From the IMG/VR virus record IMGVR_UViG_3300024264_001138, positions 1 to 20,107 of that record: DNA of 20,107 nucleotides; one strand, written 5' to 3'. The notes under the pieces were generated by a model that was not told the DNA's origin, did not search any database, and was given only the letters and a program-made list of their open reading frames with translations. The number at the start of each line of letters is the position of its first letter. Position 1 is the first letter of the stretch. Shown piece after piece: positions 1-17,758 of this stretch. Source of the stretch: a virus. The position numbers were made by a program, and so were the translations under genes.

Positions 1-998
1 AACGTCCTATATATATCATAATCGTATAGAGCTTTGTTCCTAGATATCTTACCATTAAAATCTCTAAAGAAACCAATGGAAGCTAGAGCTTTAAAAGCTG
101 TTGAACTGATCTTAGATGAGAAACAAAGAAGTATTTCTAGCCAGTTAAACTTAGAAAGCTTCTTGCCCAGTTCCTCTTCTGACATCTTGATTGTTTCAAG
201 TACCTTGTCTCCAGTTTTGCCAGTGAGAGATTTAATATCTTTAATACCAAAGTATATTTTATTCTTCTTAGCATTAAACTTATCTTCATAATTAGAAACG
301 CTAGGAGTTCTTGCCTCAATGTCAAATAGCTTTGCCTCAGATATCAGTTCGTATATCTCTTGGTGAGGGTCTTGCTTTTCGTTTGCATAATAAAGATAGG
401 CTAGGAAGAACTCTTCTGGAGTATGAGCCTTCTCATAAGCACTCCAGTAAGAACAAACAGCGTATGAAATACTGTGTGACTTATTAAAAGCATATCTAGA
501 GGAAGCCTGAATCCATCCAAAGATCTCCTCTGCCTCTTCCTTATTTACAACCTTGACTTTCTTGGCTCCAGCTATAAACTTCTTTTTAACCTTAGCCATA
601 AGGTCTGCTTTCTTTTTACCAATAGCTTTACGTAGCTCATCTGCTTCCTCAAGATTAAAGCCAGCAATCTTTTGAGCAATACGCATAGACTGCTCTTGAT
701 ACACAAGAACGCCATAGGTAGGTGCTAGAATTTCTTCTAATGACTCATGCAGAAATGTGACTTCTTCACGACCATGTTTGCGATCAATGAAGTGTTGTGT
801 CATAGACTTGCCATCCACGTATGCTTTCAAGCATCCGGGTCTGATAATAGCAATCAAGGCAGATAATTCCTCAATGTTATTAGGAGCTAACTTCTTTGAC
901 CAAGCTTTGCCAAGATTGCTTTCTAGTTGAAAGACACCCTTAGTTTTACCCTCTTCAAACAGCTCCCAAGTCTTCTTATCTGTATAATCATGTGACAT
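1..998 (-). CDS. dnaE: DNA polymerase III alpha (DnaE), C-terminal fragment, runs off window
   Basis: I translated this open frame from the minus strand; it has no stop through position 1, so at least 332 residues are present and the 3' end is missing. It carries the fingers and downstream part of a DnaE polymerase. KGVFQLES lies near residues 20-27, followed by an IIRPG segment, HFIDRKHG, PTYGVLVYQEQ, LRKAIGKKK and YAFNKSHSISYA, all in E. coli DnaE order. It contains none of the catalytic aspartates, which lie in the separate N-terminal protein at 1689-3254. The ATG at 998 overlaps the end of the exonuclease gene by 11 bases (ATGTCACATGA), so translation is probably coupled. It should pair non-covalently with the N-terminal protein to form the active polymerase (inference). 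No intein-like residues precede the DnaE homology. Family assignment is firm; start is likely. Confidence 0.92.
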   Translation of the reverse strand, partial: MSHDYTDKKTWELFEEGKTKGVFQLESNLGKAWSKKLAPNNIEELSALIAIIRPGCLKAYVDGKSMTQHFIDRKHGREEVTFLHESLEEILAPTYGVLVYQEQSMRIAQKIAGFNLEEADELRKAIGKKKADLMAKVKKKFIAGAKKVKVVNKEEAEEIFGWIQASSRYAFNKSHSISYAVCSYWSAYEKAHTPEEFFLAYLYYANEKQDPHQEIYELISEAKLFDIEARTPSVSNYEDKFNAKKNKIYFGIKDIKSLTGKTGDKVLETIKMSEEELGKKLSKFNWLEILLCFSSKISSTAFKALASIGFFRDFNGKISRNKALYDYDIYRT

Positions 999-1671
999 AT
1001 AGTTTCCCATCAGCAAATGCTTTATCTAGTTCAATATTTTGATAGACTGCTCTGTGAGTCTTCAATAGCTTTATAAATATATTAGCAGTATCTTTGACAT
1101 CTTGCAAGGCATCATGAGCGTTTTCTGAACTTAAGCCCATTCTTTCTCTCAGAGTATCCATACTGATTGACCTAACGCTTGGATCGCCCTCAGTCCACAT
1201 AAACATGTTGTCCATGAGGTCAACTTTGTAAACCTTGCTGAACAATTTGTTCTGCTGTCTACCTTCATCCCAATGCGTTTTTAGTTCTCTACAAACCCTA
1301 TTAAGAATGATATTATCATACCCAATAATGTTATACCCAACTGGGATTGGTGCAAAGAATGGCTCGCCCTTCCAGTTGAACGAGTCTACAAACTTACAGA
1401 ACTTAGGCCAGACTGCTTTGAGTGTTGGTGCTTTTGCTAATTCTTCTCTGGTCTTACCAGTAACCTTTAATGCACCTTCCTCAATGGGATCGTAACCTGC
1501 TGCAATAGCCTTGTCATCATCAATGATAGGCTTGATCATGCTCTCAAACTCACCCTTCACCTTTAGGTTTCTACCATCAATTGCAATTGCTGCAACCTGC
1601 GTAGGCATACACTTCTGAGGGTTACGTCCTGTGGTCTCAAAATCGTAGACGATATAATCTCTGTTAGCCAT
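988..1671 (-). CDS. dnaQ: DnaQ-like 3'-5' proofreading exonuclease (DEDDh)
   Basis: This 227-aa protein is a DEDDh exonuclease like the Pol III epsilon subunit, removing misincorporated 3' nucleotides. Exo I is YDFETTG with D10 and E12, Exo II is GYNIIGYD with D119, and Exo III is NAHDALQD with H186 and D191, so all five catalytic residues are present. A GAGAG ribosome site precedes the ATG. The gene sits between the two halves of the split DnaE: 17 bases separate it from the upstream stop and it overlaps the downstream start. The position suggests it is the proofreading partner of this polymerase. A clear clamp-binding motif was not found. Assignment as an exonuclease is firm; partnership with this DnaE is inferred from context. 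Confidence 0.93.
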   Translation of the reverse strand: MANRDYIVYDFETTGRNPQKCMPTQVAAIAIDGRNLKVKGEFESMIKPIIDDDKAIAAGYDPIEEGALKVTGKTREELAKAPTLKAVWPKFCKFVDSFNWKGEPFFAPIPVGYNIIGYDNIILNRVCRELKTHWDEGRQQNKLFSKVYKVDLMDNMFMWTEGDPSVRSISMDTLRERMGLSSENAHDALQDVKDTANIFIKLLKTHRAVYQNIELDKAFADGKLYVT

Positions 1672-1688
1672 ACTAGTCTCTCTTTCTT

Positions 1689-3254
1689 TTAGTCTTTAGT
1701 CAATTCTTTTACTTTCATTAATTTATCTAGCAATGACAATCCTAGAACATCTAGCTTTACATGGCCTAACGCTTCTAAGTCTGACATCTCCAACCCTGCT
1801 ATCTTCTCGTCTGTACCTTTCTGTTTAATCATTGGACATACTTCGTTAAGTGGGTCTTTAGATATGACCACACCAGCAGCATGTTTACCCTGAGTTTTAA
1901 ATGTTCCTTCCAAGTCAATTGCTTGTTGGAAATAAGCTGCATAATCGCCCTCTAGTTTACCATTATCTGTGACATGGCAGAAGTCTCTCAAGTCGTCAGG
2001 TCTGTTGATTAAAGCCCAACGAATGATTGATCTGTCCTCATCATCCATTTCTACTAACTGGTCAGATATCTCTGCTTCGTTAGGGATACTCTTTGTTATA
2101 GCATTCATCTCACCAAAAGAACAAGCTTCATTTATGCGAAGGACTTCTTTAATGGCACTACGTCCTTGCAGTCTACCAAATGTAATCATCTGACTAACCT
2201 GACCTTTGCCATAGGTCTTCTTTAAATAATCTATAACATCATCTCTACGCTTTGCTGGTACATCCATGTCAATATCAGGAAGTGACACATGACCACCAGT
2301 ATTTCTACCAGCGTTGTAGAATCTTTCAAACAATAGATCGTATTTAACTGGGTCAATCTTAGTAATACCAATAAGATATGATATCAAACAGCCAGCAGCA
2401 GAACCTCGTCCCGGCCCAGCCAAACAGCCCATGTCTTTTTCTACGTGCCTAATGATATCTTGAACAATTAGGAAGTATCCAAACAGGTCTGCATCTTTAA
2501 TAACCTGTAGCTCTTTCCTAAATCTGTCTCCATATTCCTGCTGTAGTGCTTCATCTTCACCAACTGCATCTTTTAAGAACTTTCTGTATCCAGCACGAGC
2601 CATCTTTGTCAGATGCTCTTCTTGTGACAGACCTTTAGGACAGGCAAATTTAGGCAGCATAGGTGGATGGAGTATTTCATATTCCTCACACTCATTATAT
2701 ATACGTTCAAGGTCTTTAGTTACCTTATCCTCTATAACACACTTGTCATCTTTAGTAAAATATTCTAATACCTCTGGGTCTAATTCATTTTTTCTAATCT
2801 TCTTTTGTATTTTTGGTAGGGTGGTCTTCAACGCAGAGCAAAGTAACACTCTATGAAGAGGTGCTTGCTCTTTTGTTACATAGTATGATGGATTAATGAG
2901 ATCTTTATTTTTTTGAATGGCTATTAAATTTTTCCTACTAACTATGTCTCTTGCTATGTCTTTTGGTACATTGCCATCCTCGTCTGTAAGTGACACCATC
3001 TGTATAAGATCGTGCCAGCCATCTTTATTCTTTGCGTATAGAGTGGTGTTGTCAAAAGAACAACCTATGATTGGTTTAATGCCAACCTTCTTGCACTCTT
3101 GGTGAAAAGATACTGCACCTGATATAGATTTATAATCTGCAATACCACAGGCAGGGTAATCATTTTCAGCACAAAGCTTGGCAAGTTGGTTTGGTTTAGA
3201 AAAGCCTTTTAATAAACTGTAATGCGTAATATTCTTCAATGGGAACCAGTTCAA
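1689..3254 (-). CDS. dnaE: DNA polymerase III alpha (DnaE), N-terminal fragment with PHP and catalytic palm
   Basis: This 521-aa protein covers the PHP and palm parts of a DnaE replicase. Residues 7-65 match the PHP start (HYSLLKGFS, IADYKSISGAVSFH, GIKPIIGCSF). GPGRGSAAG at 280-288 is a conserved palm loop. PDIDMD gives catalytic D327 and D329. HAAGVVIS and LDVLGL (D502, equivalent to E. coli D555) follow. The protein stops 19 residues after D502, just where bacterial DnaE continues into the fingers; that remainder is encoded at 1-998. The start is TTG, chosen because AAGGAG at 3261-3266 lies six bases upstream and the PHP homology begins at once. The PHP metal-ligand set looks incomplete, so PHP proofreading is doubtful. 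A normal DnaE exceeds 1,000 aa, so this is half an enzyme and not a short one. Confidence 0.93.
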   Translation of the reverse strand: MNWFPLKNITHYSLLKGFSKPNQLAKLCAENDYPACGIADYKSISGAVSFHQECKKVGIKPIIGCSFDNTTLYAKNKDGWHDLIQMVSLTDEDGNVPKDIARDIVSRKNLIAIQKNKDLINPSYYVTKEQAPLHRVLLCSALKTTLPKIQKKIRKNELDPEVLEYFTKDDKCVIEDKVTKDLERIYNECEEYEILHPPMLPKFACPKGLSQEEHLTKMARAGYRKFLKDAVGEDEALQQEYGDRFRKELQVIKDADLFGYFLIVQDIIRHVEKDMGCLAGPGRGSAAGCLISYLIGITKIDPVKYDLLFERFYNAGRNTGGHVSLPDIDMDVPAKRRDDVIDYLKKTYGKGQVSQMITFGRLQGRSAIKEVLRINEACSFGEMNAITKSIPNEAEISDQLVEMDDEDRSIIRWALINRPDDLRDFCHVTDNGKLEGDYAAYFQQAIDLEGTFKTQGKHAAGVVISKDPLNEVCPMIKQKGTDEKIAGLEMSDLEALGHVKLDVLGLSLLDKLMKVKELTKD

Positions 3255-3285
3255 ATTTGTCTCCTTAGTTCAATCTTATTTTCAA

Positions 3286-3369
3286 TTATTTACCAGAAGG
3301 CATTGGTCGCCTAACAGGTTCTTTAGGTCTGGGGGCATCAGTCAAAGGTATTCTCACTGGCTCGTTCAT
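3286..3369 (-). CDS. 27-aa proline-rich peptide overlapping the PAP2 gene end
   Basis: This is a very short open frame encoding a basic, proline-rich peptide (MNEPVRIPLTD, then PRPKEPVRRPMPSGK, then TAA). It is in a different frame from the PAP2 gene and overlaps its last 32 bases. Support comes from a consensus AAGGAG at 3377-3382, seven bases before this ATG and four bases before an adjacent ATG at 3372. That site has no other use, because it lies inside the PAP2 gene. The peptide also fills the gap before the polymerase start at 3254. I do not recognise a family and no membrane segment is visible. It could be a translational link rather than a functional peptide. Confidence 0.5.
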   Translation of the reverse strand: MNEPVRIPLTDAPRPKEPVRRPMPSGK

Positions 3370-4021
3370 CATAGTACTCCTTGATCAATGGATATAACTT
3401 ATCAACTACTACTACAGACGCTTGATTGTCTGAATCGTAATGGACTCCTTGTAGTATTCTAGCAAATCCACAGTAGTTTGACAACTTAAAAAACTCTTTT
3501 TTATGCTCTGGATATTCATCAGTTAATATGTGTGCTGCTAGTTCTGAATATAATACATGACCACTGGGATATGCTGGCGTGTGGTGAGTCTTAGTTCTAA
3601 GTACATTTATTTCTAAACCATAGTAAGCTGCTACCTGCTCTGGCCTAGCTCTGTTATAATAATATTTTAAAGCATACTGAAACTGCTCTAGTATATTAAA
3701 GTAATCAAGGAACTTAGACTTGGGAAACTTAAGATCTCTGGGATTGAGATACTTATAGAATAAATTAAGAGGGTCTTTGTCCACTTCTACAATCAAATCT
3801 AACTCTTCACGAGACCTAGACTTAGTTACCTTAGCTATGCTTATCAATTCTTTTTTTGTAATTAAGCTACTATTTTTAGGTGGGGGTGGAATAATCTTAG
3901 TGAAGTCAATATCCAACATGGAAGCACCAGCGTCATAGCTTATCTCATTTTCTAGATAAGTTACTTCGTCTATTGATTGTTTAGAATCAATTATCGCTGC
4001 TACTTTATTTATCAGTGACAT
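3338..4021 (-). CDS. PAP2-superfamily phosphatase (acid phosphatase/haloperoxidase fold)
   Basis: The protein carries the complete three-part PAP2 signature. Numbered from an upstream ATG at 4048, K128 and R135 form KxxxxxxRP, PSGH at 161-164 supplies H164, and R197, H203 and D207 form RxxxxxHxxxD. Members remove phosphate from lipids, nucleotides or small phosphomonoesters, or act as vanadium haloperoxidases. The substrate here cannot be read. No strong membrane helices or signal peptide are visible, unlike lipid-phosphate members, so a soluble enzyme is likely. I chose the ATG at 4021 (227 aa) because AGAGAG lies eight bases upstream; the ATG at 4048 has no ribosome site and would lengthen the overlap with the preceding gene. 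It sits in an accessory block with a DUF6356-like gene and a glycosyltransferase. Confidence 0.85.
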   Translation of the reverse strand: MSLINKVAAIIDSKQSIDEVTYLENEISYDAGASMLDIDFTKIIPPPPKNSSLITKKELISIAKVTKSRSREELDLIVEVDKDPLNLFYKYLNPRDLKFPKSKFLDYFNILEQFQYALKYYYNRARPEQVAAYYGLEINVLRTKTHHTPAYPSGHVLYSELAAHILTDEYPEHKKEFFKLSNYCGFARILQGVHYDSDNQASVVVVDKLYPLIKEYYDERASENTFD

Positions 4022-10198: not shown

Positions 10199-10680
10199 GT
10201 TCTCTTACCTTTCTCCATTAGGATATCTGCTTTACGTTTTAGTTCATATATCTTGCCATCCAGTGCTTGTACTCTTGACTCTGCAATCTCACGATAGTGA
10301 TCTACCGCTGCGGCAAACTCATCATTAACTACAATGAGTTGTCTTCTCATCTCATGCTTTGTGTATGGGCTAAAGTTATCTATGTTTTTAGCTACCATCT
10401 TGTCAAGCTTGTCATTGCACCAGCCAAGTGCAATTTTCTGCATATTTAATTCATCCTGTAGATGTGTGGAGTAGCTATATAGTTGATACGACCAATCAAA
10501 TAGTTCTGCTTGGGTAAGAGAACTGATGGTTTCCCTATCAGCATTAGCACATCTATGCCAATCATCTCTGAACTTCTTATTGAACCTAGCATTGCTGGCA
10601 CTTAAGAAGTCGTCAATCATAGCTTTCAAATCAGCTAACTGCTCATTCGCTGTTTTCAATTTGTTCTCTCCACTGCTCAT
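10195..10680 (-). CDS. Coiled-coil protein, unknown
   Basis: This 161-aa protein is almost entirely helix-forming and charged, with a likely coiled coil in the last third (about 118-158) and another near the N-terminus (NEQLADLKAMIDDFL). I do not recognise a family. The ATG at 10680 has no visible ribosome site. A TTG at 10659 (giving 154 aa) has GGAG eight bases upstream and may be the true start; TTG starts with good ribosome sites occur elsewhere in this window. It overlaps the end of the upstream nuclease gene and links to the zinc-ribbon gene by ATGA. Confidence 0.75.
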   Translation of the reverse strand: MSSGENKLKTANEQLADLKAMIDDFLSASNARFNKKFRDDWHRCANADRETISSLTQAELFDWSYQLYSYSTHLQDELNMQKIALGWCNDKLDKMVAKNIDNFSPYTKHEMRRQLIVVNDEFAAAVDHYREIAESRVQALDGKIYELKRKADILMEKGKRT

Positions 10681-11068
10681 CTGTTTCTGAGTACCTCAAT
10701 ACTATTATATCAATTTTATTCAATTCGCACCACTCTATTTTATCTTCATCCTTAGCTTTTGCAATGGCAAAGTCTGCTTTATTTTTGTGAAAGAATGGAG
10801 TGTATTCATAGTGTTGTTGACCATGCACCTCTACAGCCAGCATAATTTGTGGTATATAGAAGTCTAAATATAAGACACCTTTCCTGTGACTAAGGGTGCT
10901 TCCGGGTAACTTTACTTCTTCTAAGATTCTGTAGGAGTGGAAAATCTGTTTCAAAACTTTCCTCGCTCTTACGTGAAACTTTGACCTCTTTCGTTTGTCG
11001 TTTGCGTCTACGTTGTAGCTTGTTAAATTCCAAGCGTACTCTCTTCCATTTATACCTGTAACCTTCAT
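10643..11068 (-). CDS. PD-(D/E)XK endonuclease, Vsr/EDxHD-like
   Basis: This 141-aa protein has a basic N-terminal half and then a compact nuclease core: a candidate E50 or E51 in LEEVKLPGS, LYLDFYIP (D69), LAVEVHGQQHYE (E80, H82, H86), and a later hydrophobic strand IDIIVLRYSE (119-128). D-x10-E-x-H-G-x-x-H is typical of small PD-(D/E)XK enzymes related to Vsr and to phage EDxHD nucleases. It probably nicks or cleaves DNA structures or mismatches. AGAGG lies six bases before the ATG. Being close behind the recombinase gene, it could act in recombination or junction processing. It could instead be a stand-alone homing-type nuclease; no intron is visible nearby. Confidence 0.78.
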   Translation of the reverse strand: MKVTGINGREYAWNLTSYNVDANDKRKRSKFHVRARKVLKQIFHSYRILEEVKLPGSTLSHRKGVLYLDFYIPQIMLAVEVHGQQHYEYTPFFHKNKADFAIAKAKDEDKIEWCELNKIDIIVLRYSETDEQWREQIENSE

Positions 11069-13934: not shown

Positions 13935-14332
13935 TTATCACCATTCCTTATGTAATTAATCTTTTGTTCTCTCGTCATATTGTGTATCTTCTTTACCTGT
14001 GCTTTCTGAGCGTCTGATACTCTCTTCTTTTCTTTAGCTTCAGCTGCTCTTCTCTCAGAAGCTTCCACCATGTCAGTCTTGTTCCACTCAACTCTGGTAA
14101 TTTGTCTGCCATCTGGCATCGTCTTGTGACCTTCGTTGAATCTTTTCTCAGCTATTCCCTGCTTTGTAGTTGGTTCTCCACTCTTTACACAGGCATGAAT
14201 GCCACCATAAAGCACACGCTCTAAGCTGTTCTTTTTACATTGGGGACATTTAGTAAGTGGCTCATCCTTCATAGACTGATAAACATCTTCCATAAAATAA
14301 TCACACTTACCACATTGATAATCGTACAACAT
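13931..14332 (-). CDS. FmdB-type zinc-ribbon protein
   Basis: This 133-aa protein begins with the FmdB-family layout: YDYQCGKC (C7, C10) and CPQCKK (C29, C32) around a short EDVYQSMKDEPLTK segment, followed by LERVLYGG. The rest is charged and helical. FmdB proteins are annotated as putative regulators and their molecular role is unsettled. In phages they are small zinc-binding proteins with unknown targets. The ATG overlaps the phoH stop (TAATG), with GGAAGG immediately upstream. Confidence 0.82.
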   Translation of the reverse strand: MLYDYQCGKCDYFMEDVYQSMKDEPLTKCPQCKKNSLERVLYGGIHACVKSGEPTTKQGIAEKRFNEGHKTMPDGRQITRVEWNKTDMVEASERRAAEAKEKKRVSDAQKAQVKKIHNMTREQKINYIRNGDK

Positions 14333-15012
14333 TAACCTTCCAGTGCATATAGCACTGCTCCTATGATTCCATTTCTCTGTATATCATGATACGCTAATTT
14401 TGAGATTCCAACACCATTAATATTTGATAATCTTTGGACGCAGAAAGCAAGCCCATTATCTCTAAATATATCTGTCTGCTGGTTATCACCATTTATAAGC
14501 ACTTTAGAATGCTTGCCCATCCTCGTTATGAACATCTTAATCTGTTCAAGCGTACAGTTCTGAGCCTCGTCTAATATCATGTATGAGTCATGAAATGTAG
14601 AACCACGCATGGTTTCTAGTGGCTCAAACTTAATCCTACGCTGGTTAAAATAATAACCAAACTTTTCACGACCAAGGAAGTGGCGAAGGTTTTCTTCCAT
14701 AGGCTGTAGGTATGGTTTGATCTTGTCGTTTAGCTCTCCGGGTAAAGACCCAAGGTCTCTACCAGTACAAACTAGAGGTCTGGTTACAACTACTGTATCT
14801 ATTTCATCCTTGAGTAGTTTCTGTGCTGCAACGCCAGCAGCAATAAAAGACTTACCAGTACCAGATGGACCTGTACAAAATACAACATCGTTTTCTATAA
14901 TAGATCTTATATATGATTTTTGATTAGAAGTTTTAGCCTCTAAGACTACAGGTTTAAATTCTTTCTTTTCTTTACGTTTCTTACGATTGCTCTGTGCATG
15001 TGCTGCGACCAT
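14332..15012 (-). CDS. phoH: PhoH-like P-loop ATPase
   Basis: This 226-aa protein is a PhoH-family ATPase with a basic N-terminus (KKRKEKKE) and Walker A GPSGTGKS (48-55). It then has VVTRPLV, the family segment GSLPGELNDKI (88-98), Walker B ILDEAQN (146-152) and INGDNQQTD (173-181). Bacterial PhoH is linked to phosphate starvation and RNA metabolism; phage copies are very common in marine phages but their biochemical role is unclear. AAGGAGG lies five bases before the ATG, one of the best ribosome sites here. It follows dUTPase by ten bases. Confidence 0.93.
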   Translation of the reverse strand: MVAAHAQSNRKKRKEKKEFKPVVLEAKTSNQKSYIRSIIENDVVFCTGPSGTGKSFIAAGVAAQKLLKDEIDTVVVTRPLVCTGRDLGSLPGELNDKIKPYLQPMEENLRHFLGREKFGYYFNQRRIKFEPLETMRGSTFHDSYMILDEAQNCTLEQIKMFITRMGKHSKVLINGDNQQTDIFRDNGLAFCVQRLSNINGVGISKLAYHDIQRNGIIGAVLYALEG

Positions 15013-15022
15013 TTAAGCCTCC

Positions 15023-15451
15023 TTAGCGTCCAGTAGATCCAAAGCCTGCTTTATCTCTTGATGAAGTTGTTAAGTCCTCTCTTAACATTAAAGATACATT
15101 GGGGATTTCTTGGAAAACAATTTGTGCAATTCTGTCACCCTTCTTTATTTCTACGTCCTCATCAGAAGTATTATAAAGACATACCATAACTTCACCCCTA
15201 TAGCCAGAGTCAATAACACCAGCTAGTACATCAATACCTTTCTTGACTGACAGTCCAGACCTAGGCCAAACTAGACCTGCCATATTGTCAGGCATCTCTA
15301 GAGAGATTCCAGTTTTGACTGTTTGTCGCTGCTTGGCAAAGACCCAAGCTTCTTCATCAGCGAATACGTCAAACCCAGCATCTGTTCTGTTGGCTTTAAA
15401 AGGCATCTGTGCTGTTTCAGTTAACAGTTTATAAGAGACAAATCCCATCAT
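15023..15451 (-). CDS. dut: dUTP diphosphatase (trimeric dUTPase)
   Basis: This 142-aa enzyme hydrolyses dUTP to dUMP and pyrophosphate, keeping uracil out of DNA and feeding dTMP synthesis. All five motifs are present in order: AGFDVFAD (25-32), PRSGLSVK (63-70), GVIDSGYRGEV (78-88), GDRIAQIVF (105-113) and the flexible C-terminal AGFGSTGR (135-142). The first ATG is chosen because AAGGAG lies six bases upstream; a second ATG follows immediately. The 90-bp gap before it holds an unusual repeat (15471-15533) that could control this gene and those downstream. Confidence 0.95.
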   Translation of the reverse strand: MMGFVSYKLLTETAQMPFKANRTDAGFDVFADEEAWVFAKQRQTVKTGISLEMPDNMAGLVWPRSGLSVKKGIDVLAGVIDSGYRGEVMVCLYNTSDEDVEIKKGDRIAQIVFQEIPNVSLMLREDLTTSSRDKAGFGSTGR

Positions 15452-15541: not shown

Positions 15542-17758
15542 TTATAAGATTTCACAATTTCCACCAGCACATGAGAGTTCCTGTACAGGGTTAACATTAT
15601 TCTGTTGCTCTAGAACCTGAGTGTAGTCAACGTCTTTATATTCACGTTGGATATCTAGCCACTCTTTCCAGTTATATACATCCTTCATGCAATAAGTAAG
15701 CTTTTTTAAATCTCCATCCATATATTTATCAGCAAACTTCTGACACTTATTTTGATACTCTCTCTTATCTTTACCCTTGAGCTTTGTACCAAAACCTAGA
15801 AGGCTATCACATGCTGCCCACAGGTTGTCCTCAAAAAGAGAAATGCCTATTTCAATAAGACCACTGACAAACATACAAGCGTCACCATAGTGATGAATCT
15901 GCTCGCTAGGTAAGTAAACGGTTGTGAATGGTGCTTGAGCGTAATCCTTATCACCAGCGATTGGCAATAGAGAAATACCACAGAAGTGCTGACGATTAGC
16001 ATAGATGTATTCTGTAACCTCATCCCATTCTTGAGGCATAACATTAATTGTATTAGATACATTGTGTGTTAGCCAAGGTTGGGTACATTGTTCAGGGTTC
16101 TTTCCTGACTCAACCCATGCACATTGCGTACTTTTTACATACTCAAGCAGGTCAATAGCACCCAATTGGTTCTTAATTTTAGCACCATCTGGAACCTCTA
16201 CGCAAAAGGCTACAACGTCATCAGTGTCGTTGTTAGACCATACTGACTCTTCACATGCTCTAGGATTTACTTCTCTAAAGTACTGATAGATTGGCTCCAT
16301 CTTGTTTGCTTGTACTCTACGAATGTATCTCTTAGCATGGTGAGGGTGAATGCCAGATGACGTACCAAGAATACAACTTGACGTACCCTCTGGCTTAACA
16401 CAGGTAGTTCGTGCAGCTTGATTGACACCAATTAGTCCTGCTACTCTCTTGTTGGTTTCTCTGACTATCTCAGCACCTTTCTTTTGTACCTTTGGATCAA
16501 GACAAATCTCATGCTGTTCCATGACTCCTGTCATTGACACTCCAAGTAGAGCCTCACGACTAATGATTCGCTCTGACACTTCGCCAAGATATGGGAACTG
16601 GGAGAATCCAGCCTGTAGTGTACCAATGGTTGCAGCAGCTTCACAAGCTTCGTAGAATTCTTCTTCAGTCTTAACCTTAGCACAATTAATAGTAGATAGA
16701 TTACATGCCTGCCATCCTGTCTTACCTGTCTTTTCATCTACAGGCCACATGCCAATCTCTACGCAGGGGTTTACAATCAACTCTGTAGAGTCAGACCATA
16801 CGAATCCGGGTTCCCCAAACTCTTTGACTGACTGCATGAGAGTAGAGAACTCTTCCTCTGTAGTCTCACCACGTAGAAGTAGTGCAGAGTTATTAGATCG
16901 TCCACGCTGTGGATTGTCAATAAACCATGATCCAGTTTTGGCTTTTGCCATCTCTTCATCGTCAGGAGAGAAGACACAGATGGTAGCACTACGTCTGACA
17001 CCACCACTAATTACAGCGTCAGCACCATACATTACGATATCATACGCATCAATAGGTTTAAGTTTCCTGTCTCCAGACTTAATTGCTCTGTCAAGGGTCT
17101 TCTTGATACTTGTAAGGGCTTTTCGCAGCGGATCTGGTCCGGGAGCCTTACCTCCGCTAGACTTTAAATATGAGCCTGCTGAACGTATTTTAGAGTAATC
17201 AAAAACTACAGTCTTTCCAGTATATTCTGGGAACAGATTGCACTTGGAGAAGTAACTGGACACCAGTACACCTACAGCGTCTGACCAGCCTTCAATTGAG
17301 TCCTCAATGACAAACTTCTTTGTCCCTGACTTCTCTTTTACCAGCTTTGGTAGCTTGGCGATGTGATGCCTTTGAACAGAAAAGCCAGTACCACAACCAC
17401 AGAGTAGGAGGTACATACATTCTTGAAAGAACTTTGGTCTATCTACATATGAAGAAATACAATTATACATTCTAGCATTGTGTTTAAACACTGGCGATCC
17501 ACCAAACTGCAACGCTCTCTGAGAACCTAGAACCCTCTTCTTTCTCATGCCTTCATAGGCTTGTTCAATAACTCGTGCGATCTCTGCTACTGGAGGAGGG
17601 GTTGTCTCTTGATGTATGCTACCACCCACATACTTATCAAACATCATTTGCTTGACCCTATCAACTGACTCGCCCCACGTTTCCCTTCTTAGCTTACCTG
17701 CGTCCCATCTTGCATACTTAGATACGAAAGTATAGTTCATCAGTGATTTAATTGACAT
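15542..17758 (-). CDS. nrdJ: Class II (B12-dependent) ribonucleoside-triphosphate reductase
   Basis: This 738-aa enzyme reduces ribonucleoside triphosphates to dNTPs using adenosylcobalamin. Length and layout fit the monomeric Lactobacillus-type enzyme. C100 in MYNCISS and C352 in WQACNLSTIN are the redox pair. PCVEIG (331-336) supplies the thiyl-radical cysteine C332 and E334. CVKPEGTSSCILGTSSGIHP (453-472) is the phosphate-binding loop region. The C-terminal shuttle pair is C730 and C735 (SCAGGNCEIL). No intein interrupts it and no partner subunit is needed. It works without oxygen chemistry but needs host B12 and a thioredoxin-like reductant. GAGG lies upstream of the ATG at moderate distance. 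Confidence 0.95.
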   Translation of the reverse strand: MSIKSLMNYTFVSKYARWDAGKLRRETWGESVDRVKQMMFDKYVGGSIHQETTPPPVAEIARVIEQAYEGMRKKRVLGSQRALQFGGSPVFKHNARMYNCISSYVDRPKFFQECMYLLLCGCGTGFSVQRHHIAKLPKLVKEKSGTKKFVIEDSIEGWSDAVGVLVSSYFSKCNLFPEYTGKTVVFDYSKIRSAGSYLKSSGGKAPGPDPLRKALTSIKKTLDRAIKSGDRKLKPIDAYDIVMYGADAVISGGVRRSATICVFSPDDEEMAKAKTGSWFIDNPQRGRSNNSALLLRGETTEEEFSTLMQSVKEFGEPGFVWSDSTELIVNPCVEIGMWPVDEKTGKTGWQACNLSTINCAKVKTEEEFYEACEAAATIGTLQAGFSQFPYLGEVSERIISREALLGVSMTGVMEQHEICLDPKVQKKGAEIVRETNKRVAGLIGVNQAARTTCVKPEGTSSCILGTSSGIHPHHAKRYIRRVQANKMEPIYQYFREVNPRACEESVWSNNDTDDVVAFCVEVPDGAKIKNQLGAIDLLEYVKSTQCAWVESGKNPEQCTQPWLTHNVSNTINVMPQEWDEVTEYIYANRQHFCGISLLPIAGDKDYAQAPFTTVYLPSEQIHHYGDACMFVSGLIEIGISLFEDNLWAACDSLLGFGTKLKGKDKREYQNKCQKFADKYMDGDLKKLTYCMKDVYNWKEWLDIQREYKDVDYTQVLEQQNNVNPVQELSCAGGNCEIL

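Follow-up and report, generated by a model that had tools for sequence, protein, structure and literature searches.

A phage DNA polymerase III alpha subunit divided between palm and fingers, with a proofreading exonuclease gene between its halves

Introduction

The locus analyzed here raises the question of whether a replicative family C polymerase can keep working once its gene has been cut between the palm and fingers domains, from which its active site is built. It lies at one end of IMG/VR virus record IMGVR_UViG_3300024264_001138, a tailed-phage genome fragment whose 20,107 bases (positions 1 to 20,107) make up the whole record and are referred to below as the window. The genes identified in the window are all encoded on the minus strand and serve mostly replication and nucleotide metabolism. 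An original prediction, made from the sequence alone, had described a DnaE polymerase in two pieces with an exonuclease gene between them, and had proposed that the halves of this alpha subunit must assemble non-covalently, possibly bridged by the exonuclease in the role of epsilon. The reading that we favour, with a probability of about 0.82, is that of a fixed gene-in-pieces dnaE of a Caudoviricetes lineage, which would have arisen through one break by a mobile nuclease and a later insertion of the exonuclease gene, and whose product would consist of two subunits docking non-covalently, with an epsilon-like proofreader.

Anatomy of the divided polymerase

Following the direction of transcription, the first gene (dnaE-N, 1689..3254, minus strand) starts with a TTG codon preceded, 6 nt upstream, by the Shine-Dalgarno sequence AAGGAG (3261..3266), and encodes the PHP, palm and thumb half of the DNA polymerase III alpha subunit in 521 residues (Pfam PHP, 3.2e-16; DNA_pol3_alpha, 8.9e-68). 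Its palm/thumb region (PF07733, 1740..2615) contains the catalytic aspartates D327 (2276-2274), D329 (2270-2268) and D502 (1751-1749), and the protein ends 19 residues past the last of these. A 17-base gap (1672..1688) separates its stop codon from the ATG of the exonuclease gene (988..1671), whose 227-residue product is an epsilon/DnaQ-like 3'-5' exonuclease (RNase_T, 1.8e-16; phrog_192, 'DNA polymerase exonuclease subunit', 8.8e-30) presenting the D-E, D and H-D motifs of the DEDDh type in full (Exo I D10/E12, Exo II D119, Exo III H186/D191). The end of this gene overlaps by 11 bases (988..998) the start of the fingers, HhH and OB half (dnaE-C, 1..998), which begins with an ATG at 998, resumes about 20 residues before the KGVFQLES motif of the fingers (DNA_pol3_finger, PF17657, 1.1e-48) and is cut by the contig end at base 1, leaving 332 residues visible. 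Complete dnaE-C genes of relatives encode about 505-530 residues; in these the HHH_6 match, just under the cut-off in the window, rises over it, and the OB region of the full-length proteins aligns to residues 949-1056 of E. coli alpha. The three open reading frames and both junctions thus lie exactly where the original prediction had placed them.

Profile alignment against E. coli alpha locates the break: the N profile stops at about residue 575 and the C profile starts at about 588, so that some 12 residues of the palm-fingers linker are absent between the halves. AlphaFold2 models of the window N half and of the C half of a relative (L028) reached mean predicted local distance difference test scores (pLDDT) of 90.1 and 90.5, and the best PDB matches of both were bacterial Pol III alpha chains. 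The ranking of PDB matches puts the polymerase halves closer to DnaE than to PolC. The attributes of a family C DnaE, namely a PHP domain and a palm with three catalytic aspartates followed by fingers, HhH and OB regions, are all present, save for the continuous polypeptide: in every clade relative examined they are encoded in separate open reading frames.

Breadth of the arrangement

Scans of viral contigs with the three proteins taken singly returned 26, 80 and 45 loci, and the N-exonuclease-C order was found as separate open reading frames in nearly every scanned locus with sufficient flank. The first profile scan alone yielded 80 loci, with identities down to about 41%, and all 80 were split. 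After two deeper scans and the removal of duplicates, the set of relatives comprised 158 distinct triples, most of them from IMG/VR contigs and some sharing as little as about 40% protein identity. The search for the same gene order called for by the original prediction thus proved productive, and the contiguous dnaE that would have spoken against it did not appear among clade relatives, every classified one being split. The genes are often tightly packed: the N-exonuclease junction is overlapping or touching in 52 of the 158 triples, the exonuclease-C junction is overlapping or of zero gap in 51, and both junctions stay within 50 bases in 37. Two relatives present lesions in dnaE-N, an in-frame stop in L020 and an apparent frameshift in L197, which may be errors or real.

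Outside viral contigs, a scan of genome contigs detected the arrangement on a single phage-like contig (L231) of a Flavobacteriales metagenome-assembled genome, which may be mis-binned; the other matches were bacterial DnaE proteins sharing 27-41% identity, and those shown were without exception contiguous. No cultured member of the clade was found; the DnaE matches among isolates were all below 60% identity (mostly about 25-38%) and those of the terminase about 24-27%, and no isolate in the phage collection was found to carry the N-exonuclease-C order. Nor did we find an earlier description of this order in the open-licence literature, an absence that is no proof of novelty. The phage group harbouring it is large and apparently uncultured.

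Evolutionary history of the break

In the main tree (37 rows, mixture model, 200 bootstrap trees), the split rows form one clade with a support of 100/100, recovered in 200/200 bootstrap trees, and the group nearest to it is made up of contiguous phage DnaE proteins (L454, L466, L469). A contiguous sister lineage next to one split clade is the pattern expected of a once-contiguous gene now in pieces. The break occurred once in this clade, is old and is still conserved. A quick tree of 75 rows is concordant, except for L478, which falls outside the split clade on a long branch; it was accordingly rejected as a second member of the clade. In L478 the same linker is interrupted and a methyltransferase-like gene separates the halves, which probably reflects a second, independent break.

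The first branch inside the split clade comprises L404, L405 and L406, which are broken at the same point and show no match to the exonuclease of the clade between their halves. The gap holds macro-like and uracil-DNA-glycosylase-like open reading frames in L405, as assigned by reading the sequences, and about 5 kb and 12 kb of other genes in L406 and L404, respectively. The simplest order of events is thus break first and exonuclease second, the alternative being a loss of the exonuclease from this branch. The same three relatives have insertions of about 105-120 residues inside N, and L406 a larger one of about 240 residues inside C, all of them possibly inteins.

Selection on the two halves and a model for the divided enzyme

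The catalytic residues pointed out in the original prediction are invariant in 27 aligned relatives, as are D10, E12, D119, H186 and D191 of the exonuclease in an alignment of 27 sequences. The ratio of nonsynonymous to synonymous substitution rates (dN/dS) is 0.00-0.07 for all three genes in the pairs that allow an estimate, several distant pairs being saturated in dS and giving none. A real split between palm and fingers, the lack of an intein at the break and selection on both halves together argue for a two-piece alpha that is probably non-covalent, and a functional polymerase very probably forms again from the halves.

A further line of evidence concerns how the gene was broken. Many relatives carry an extra open reading frame at one or both junctions, with Endonuclease_7, HNH_3 and NaeI-like examples among the Pfam assignments; across the 158 triples, 23 exonuclease-C gaps contain an Endonuclease VII signature and 10 N-exonuclease gaps a PD-(D/E)XK-like one. 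These nucleases fit, without proving it, the genes-in-pieces route of T4-related phages (PMC2988022). At the break of the window itself a mobile nuclease gene is absent. Junction genes of other kinds also occur, with FkbM-methyltransferase-like or glycosyltransferase-like open reading frames, rather than nucleases, at the dnaE/exonuclease junctions of L005, L009 and L059.

The favoured reading can be laid out as a sequence of steps. The ancestor of the clade would have had one continuous dnaE, which suffered a single break in the surface linker joining palm to fingers, most likely when a free-standing mobile nuclease gene inserted there, an interruption that would have been tolerated because of its location between domains. 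The gene for a DEDDh proofreading exonuclease would later have settled in the gap, where nearly all descendants have retained it. With the three genes translated from one operon, the subunits would be made close to one another. The active site would form where N (with PHP, palm and thumb) meets C (with fingers, HhH and OB) in a non-covalent contact along the palm-fingers interface, and proofreading would fall to the exonuclease, an epsilon-like partner that is probably attached to the N half.

Some observations weigh against this reading. An intact dnaE with a homing nuclease at the exact point of the break was not seen, and the case for the origin step is thus indirect. The beta clamp (PF02767) had no match in 30 large relatives. 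Finally, the split-clade contigs are metagenomic and of unestablished completeness, so that another polymerase could lie outside them.

Role of the exonuclease

The alternative that fares best takes up the suggestion of an epsilon bridge: the exonuclease would bind both halves as a structural bridge required for polymerase assembly, and would owe to this its place between them. The conservation of gene order in the 158 triples is in keeping with such a role, and the short gene overlaps suggest coupled translation. The divergence of the exonuclease also correlates with that of both halves (Spearman rank correlations of 0.78 with N and 0.69 with C, against 0.81 between N and C). When the third gene is controlled for, however, the partial rank correlations are 0.60 for N-C, 0.52 for N-exonuclease and 0.15 for C-exonuclease; the measure is rough and the divergence pairs are non-independent, yet the exonuclease tracks N and hardly C. 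Moreover, the contact described between epsilon and alpha is made through the PHP domain (PMC3666897), which is here confined to the N half, and the basal branch of L404, L405 and L406 is split with no match to the exonuclease between the halves. The correlations are suggestive only, and agree better with attachment of the exonuclease to N than with a bridge between the halves. Hence, of the original proposal the two-piece, non-covalent alpha stands as probable, whereas the bridge is unlikely. A stronger version, in which an obligate three-protein core replicase would need the exonuclease to assemble the alpha halves, coupling polymerization and proofreading at assembly, with the operon kept by selection for assembly order, appears equally doubtful.

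The PHP domain match in the window (2937..3233, minus strand) is of a short form that lacks the metal-ligand residues (no HxH, and DH replaced by DY), as seen in Pfam, in the profile alignment to T. aquaticus alpha and in a motif survey. By a simple motif test on the 158 triples, HxH and TDH are both present in 41, all of which have an N half of at least 619 residues, and neither is present in 108, with a median N length of 535; the window belongs to the latter group.

Alternative explanations

According to a second alternative, the split dnaE would be an accessory polymerase, or one in decay, and the genome would be copied by another enzyme. There is precedent in some jumbo phages, in which a split minimal Pol III alpha is found beside a family B polymerase (PMC7824862), and the window PHP domain without its metal ligands might be taken as a sign of decay. 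In bacteria, nonetheless, loss of the PHP metal ligands correlates with possession of epsilon (PMC3666897), and neither the invariant catalytic residues nor the low dN/dS is what a decaying gene would show. The dnaE genes of the window share, in addition, a replication module with the genes for primase, DnaB and RecA, as identified by Pfam. No second replicative polymerase was detected in the large relatives searched: PolA and PolB had no match in 30 of them, and PF07733 had one match in each of 25 (69-200 kb), so that the second full-length DnaE that the original prediction had named as a possible refutation did not appear in these. This alternative is consequently very unlikely. Two matching assemblies, G030 (206 kb) and G032 (221 kb), carry instead two split sets, located 146 kb apart in both, and the C half of one set is further broken by a split intein.

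It is more improbable still that N and C become linked, be it covalently or at the level of RNA, through a split intein, intron splicing, frameshift or readthrough. Inteins do exist in relatives: they are split in the N half of L074 and L194 (at GPGRG|SAAG) and in the C half of L373 and L390 (at FNK|SH, where an open reading frame for a putative free-standing endonuclease lies in between), the C half of L374 also has one, and L147 has a continuous HNH intein at RPG|C. None of them, however, is located at the break between N and C. The facing ends of the window halves contain no intein sequence, as the original prediction had noted; the junction tails of about 19-20 residues align to native DnaE and leave no room for intein fragments, and the same intein-free break recurs in every clade relative examined. 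An intron was rejected, as window bases 1-4000 match no Rfam family, intron families among them, at E<=1. Since N, exonuclease and C occupy three different reading frames in the window, readthrough cannot join them, and fusion by frameshift was discarded on the same grounds. A separate insertion, of about 70 residues, lies in the fingers of L365 dnaE-C beside the RPGC motif and has no intein-like sequence by eye.

An assembly or binning artefact, conceivable for a single metagenomic contig ending inside dnaE-C, can be dismissed, as the arrangement is common to independent contigs from many samples with real sequence divergence (158 distinct triples).

Other genes in the window

Among the replication genes of the window, a small open reading frame (10643-11068, minus strand) has a weak PvuRts1I-like match below the cut-off and is possibly a Vsr/PD-(D/E)XK nuclease. 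A B12-dependent (class II) ribonucleotide reductase is encoded at 15542-17758 (minus strand), adjoined by genes for a dUTPase (15023-15451) and PhoH (14332-15012).

Comparison with known systems and implications

The original prediction regarded a two-piece alpha as an unusual replicase, but split phage replicases are an established kind. In the T4-type phages Aeromonas 25 and 44RR, gp43 is split into 43A and 43B, and the phage 25 halves co-purify and polymerize (PMC2988022). As here, a phage replicative polymerase is encoded by two genes without an intein, and what lies between them can be a seg homing endonuclease; the enzyme is nevertheless of family B rather than C, and its intervening gene is not a proofreading exonuclease. 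To our knowledge, the T4-type split is not fixed across a deep clade.

Closer in enzyme family is the minimal split Pol III alpha of group 2.2 jumbo phages, with two standalone proteins that are predicted to reconstitute, encoded by distantly located genes with no other Pol III domains and beside PolB (PMC7824862). It shares with our case a family C catalytic subunit in two proteins, whereas here both halves have further alpha domains, the genes form one operon with an exonuclease and the 30 relatives lack PolB matches. In the NrdA of phage Aeh1, broken by a mobE insertion, activity is retained by a gene in pieces (PMC2988022). The likeness resides in an essential, contiguous enzyme broken by a free-standing nuclease gene; the enzyme is different, and in the clade described here the gap houses a functional partner that is itself conserved, and mobile nucleases occur at the junctions only in some cases.

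In the split-intein DnaE of cyanobacteria, which is likewise encoded by two genes, the halves are ligated by a trans-splicing intein; here the break lies at the palm-fingers linker and no IntN or IntC is found at it. PolC also links a family C polymerase to a DEDDh exonuclease, but as a domain of one polypeptide, in contrast to three separate genes with halves nearer to DnaE. Among isolates, dnaE is in pieces in the Staphylococcus Sextaecvirus phages PMBT8 (three parts) and S-CoN_Ph15 (four parts) and in Bacteroides phage BS-TP1 (rows L481-L483). These resemble our case in spreading a phage DnaE over 2-4 neighbouring open reading frames, and differ in having mostly other break points and no N-exonuclease-C order, the BS-TP1 gap holding a Dda-like helicase gene. 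Other phages add to the series, with a split DNA polymerase gene bearing a small inserted open reading frame in OM43 phages (PMC10580990) and a PolB split by a split intein in a Pseudomonas jumbo phage (PMC6892783). What sets the present case apart is the N-exonuclease-C order, for which a two-piece, non-covalent alpha is the best-supported mechanism.

These results indicate that a family C replicase can exist in permanently separate pieces, cut between palm and fingers, which form its active site, and still experience strong purifying selection across a phage radiation of great depth. They also carry a warning for annotation, as the halves resemble truncated dnaE genes and may be dismissed as fragments. 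More generally, the palm-fingers linker emerges as a place where nature has split a family C polymerase, and the clade provides a system for asking how genes in pieces become fixed multi-subunit enzymes.

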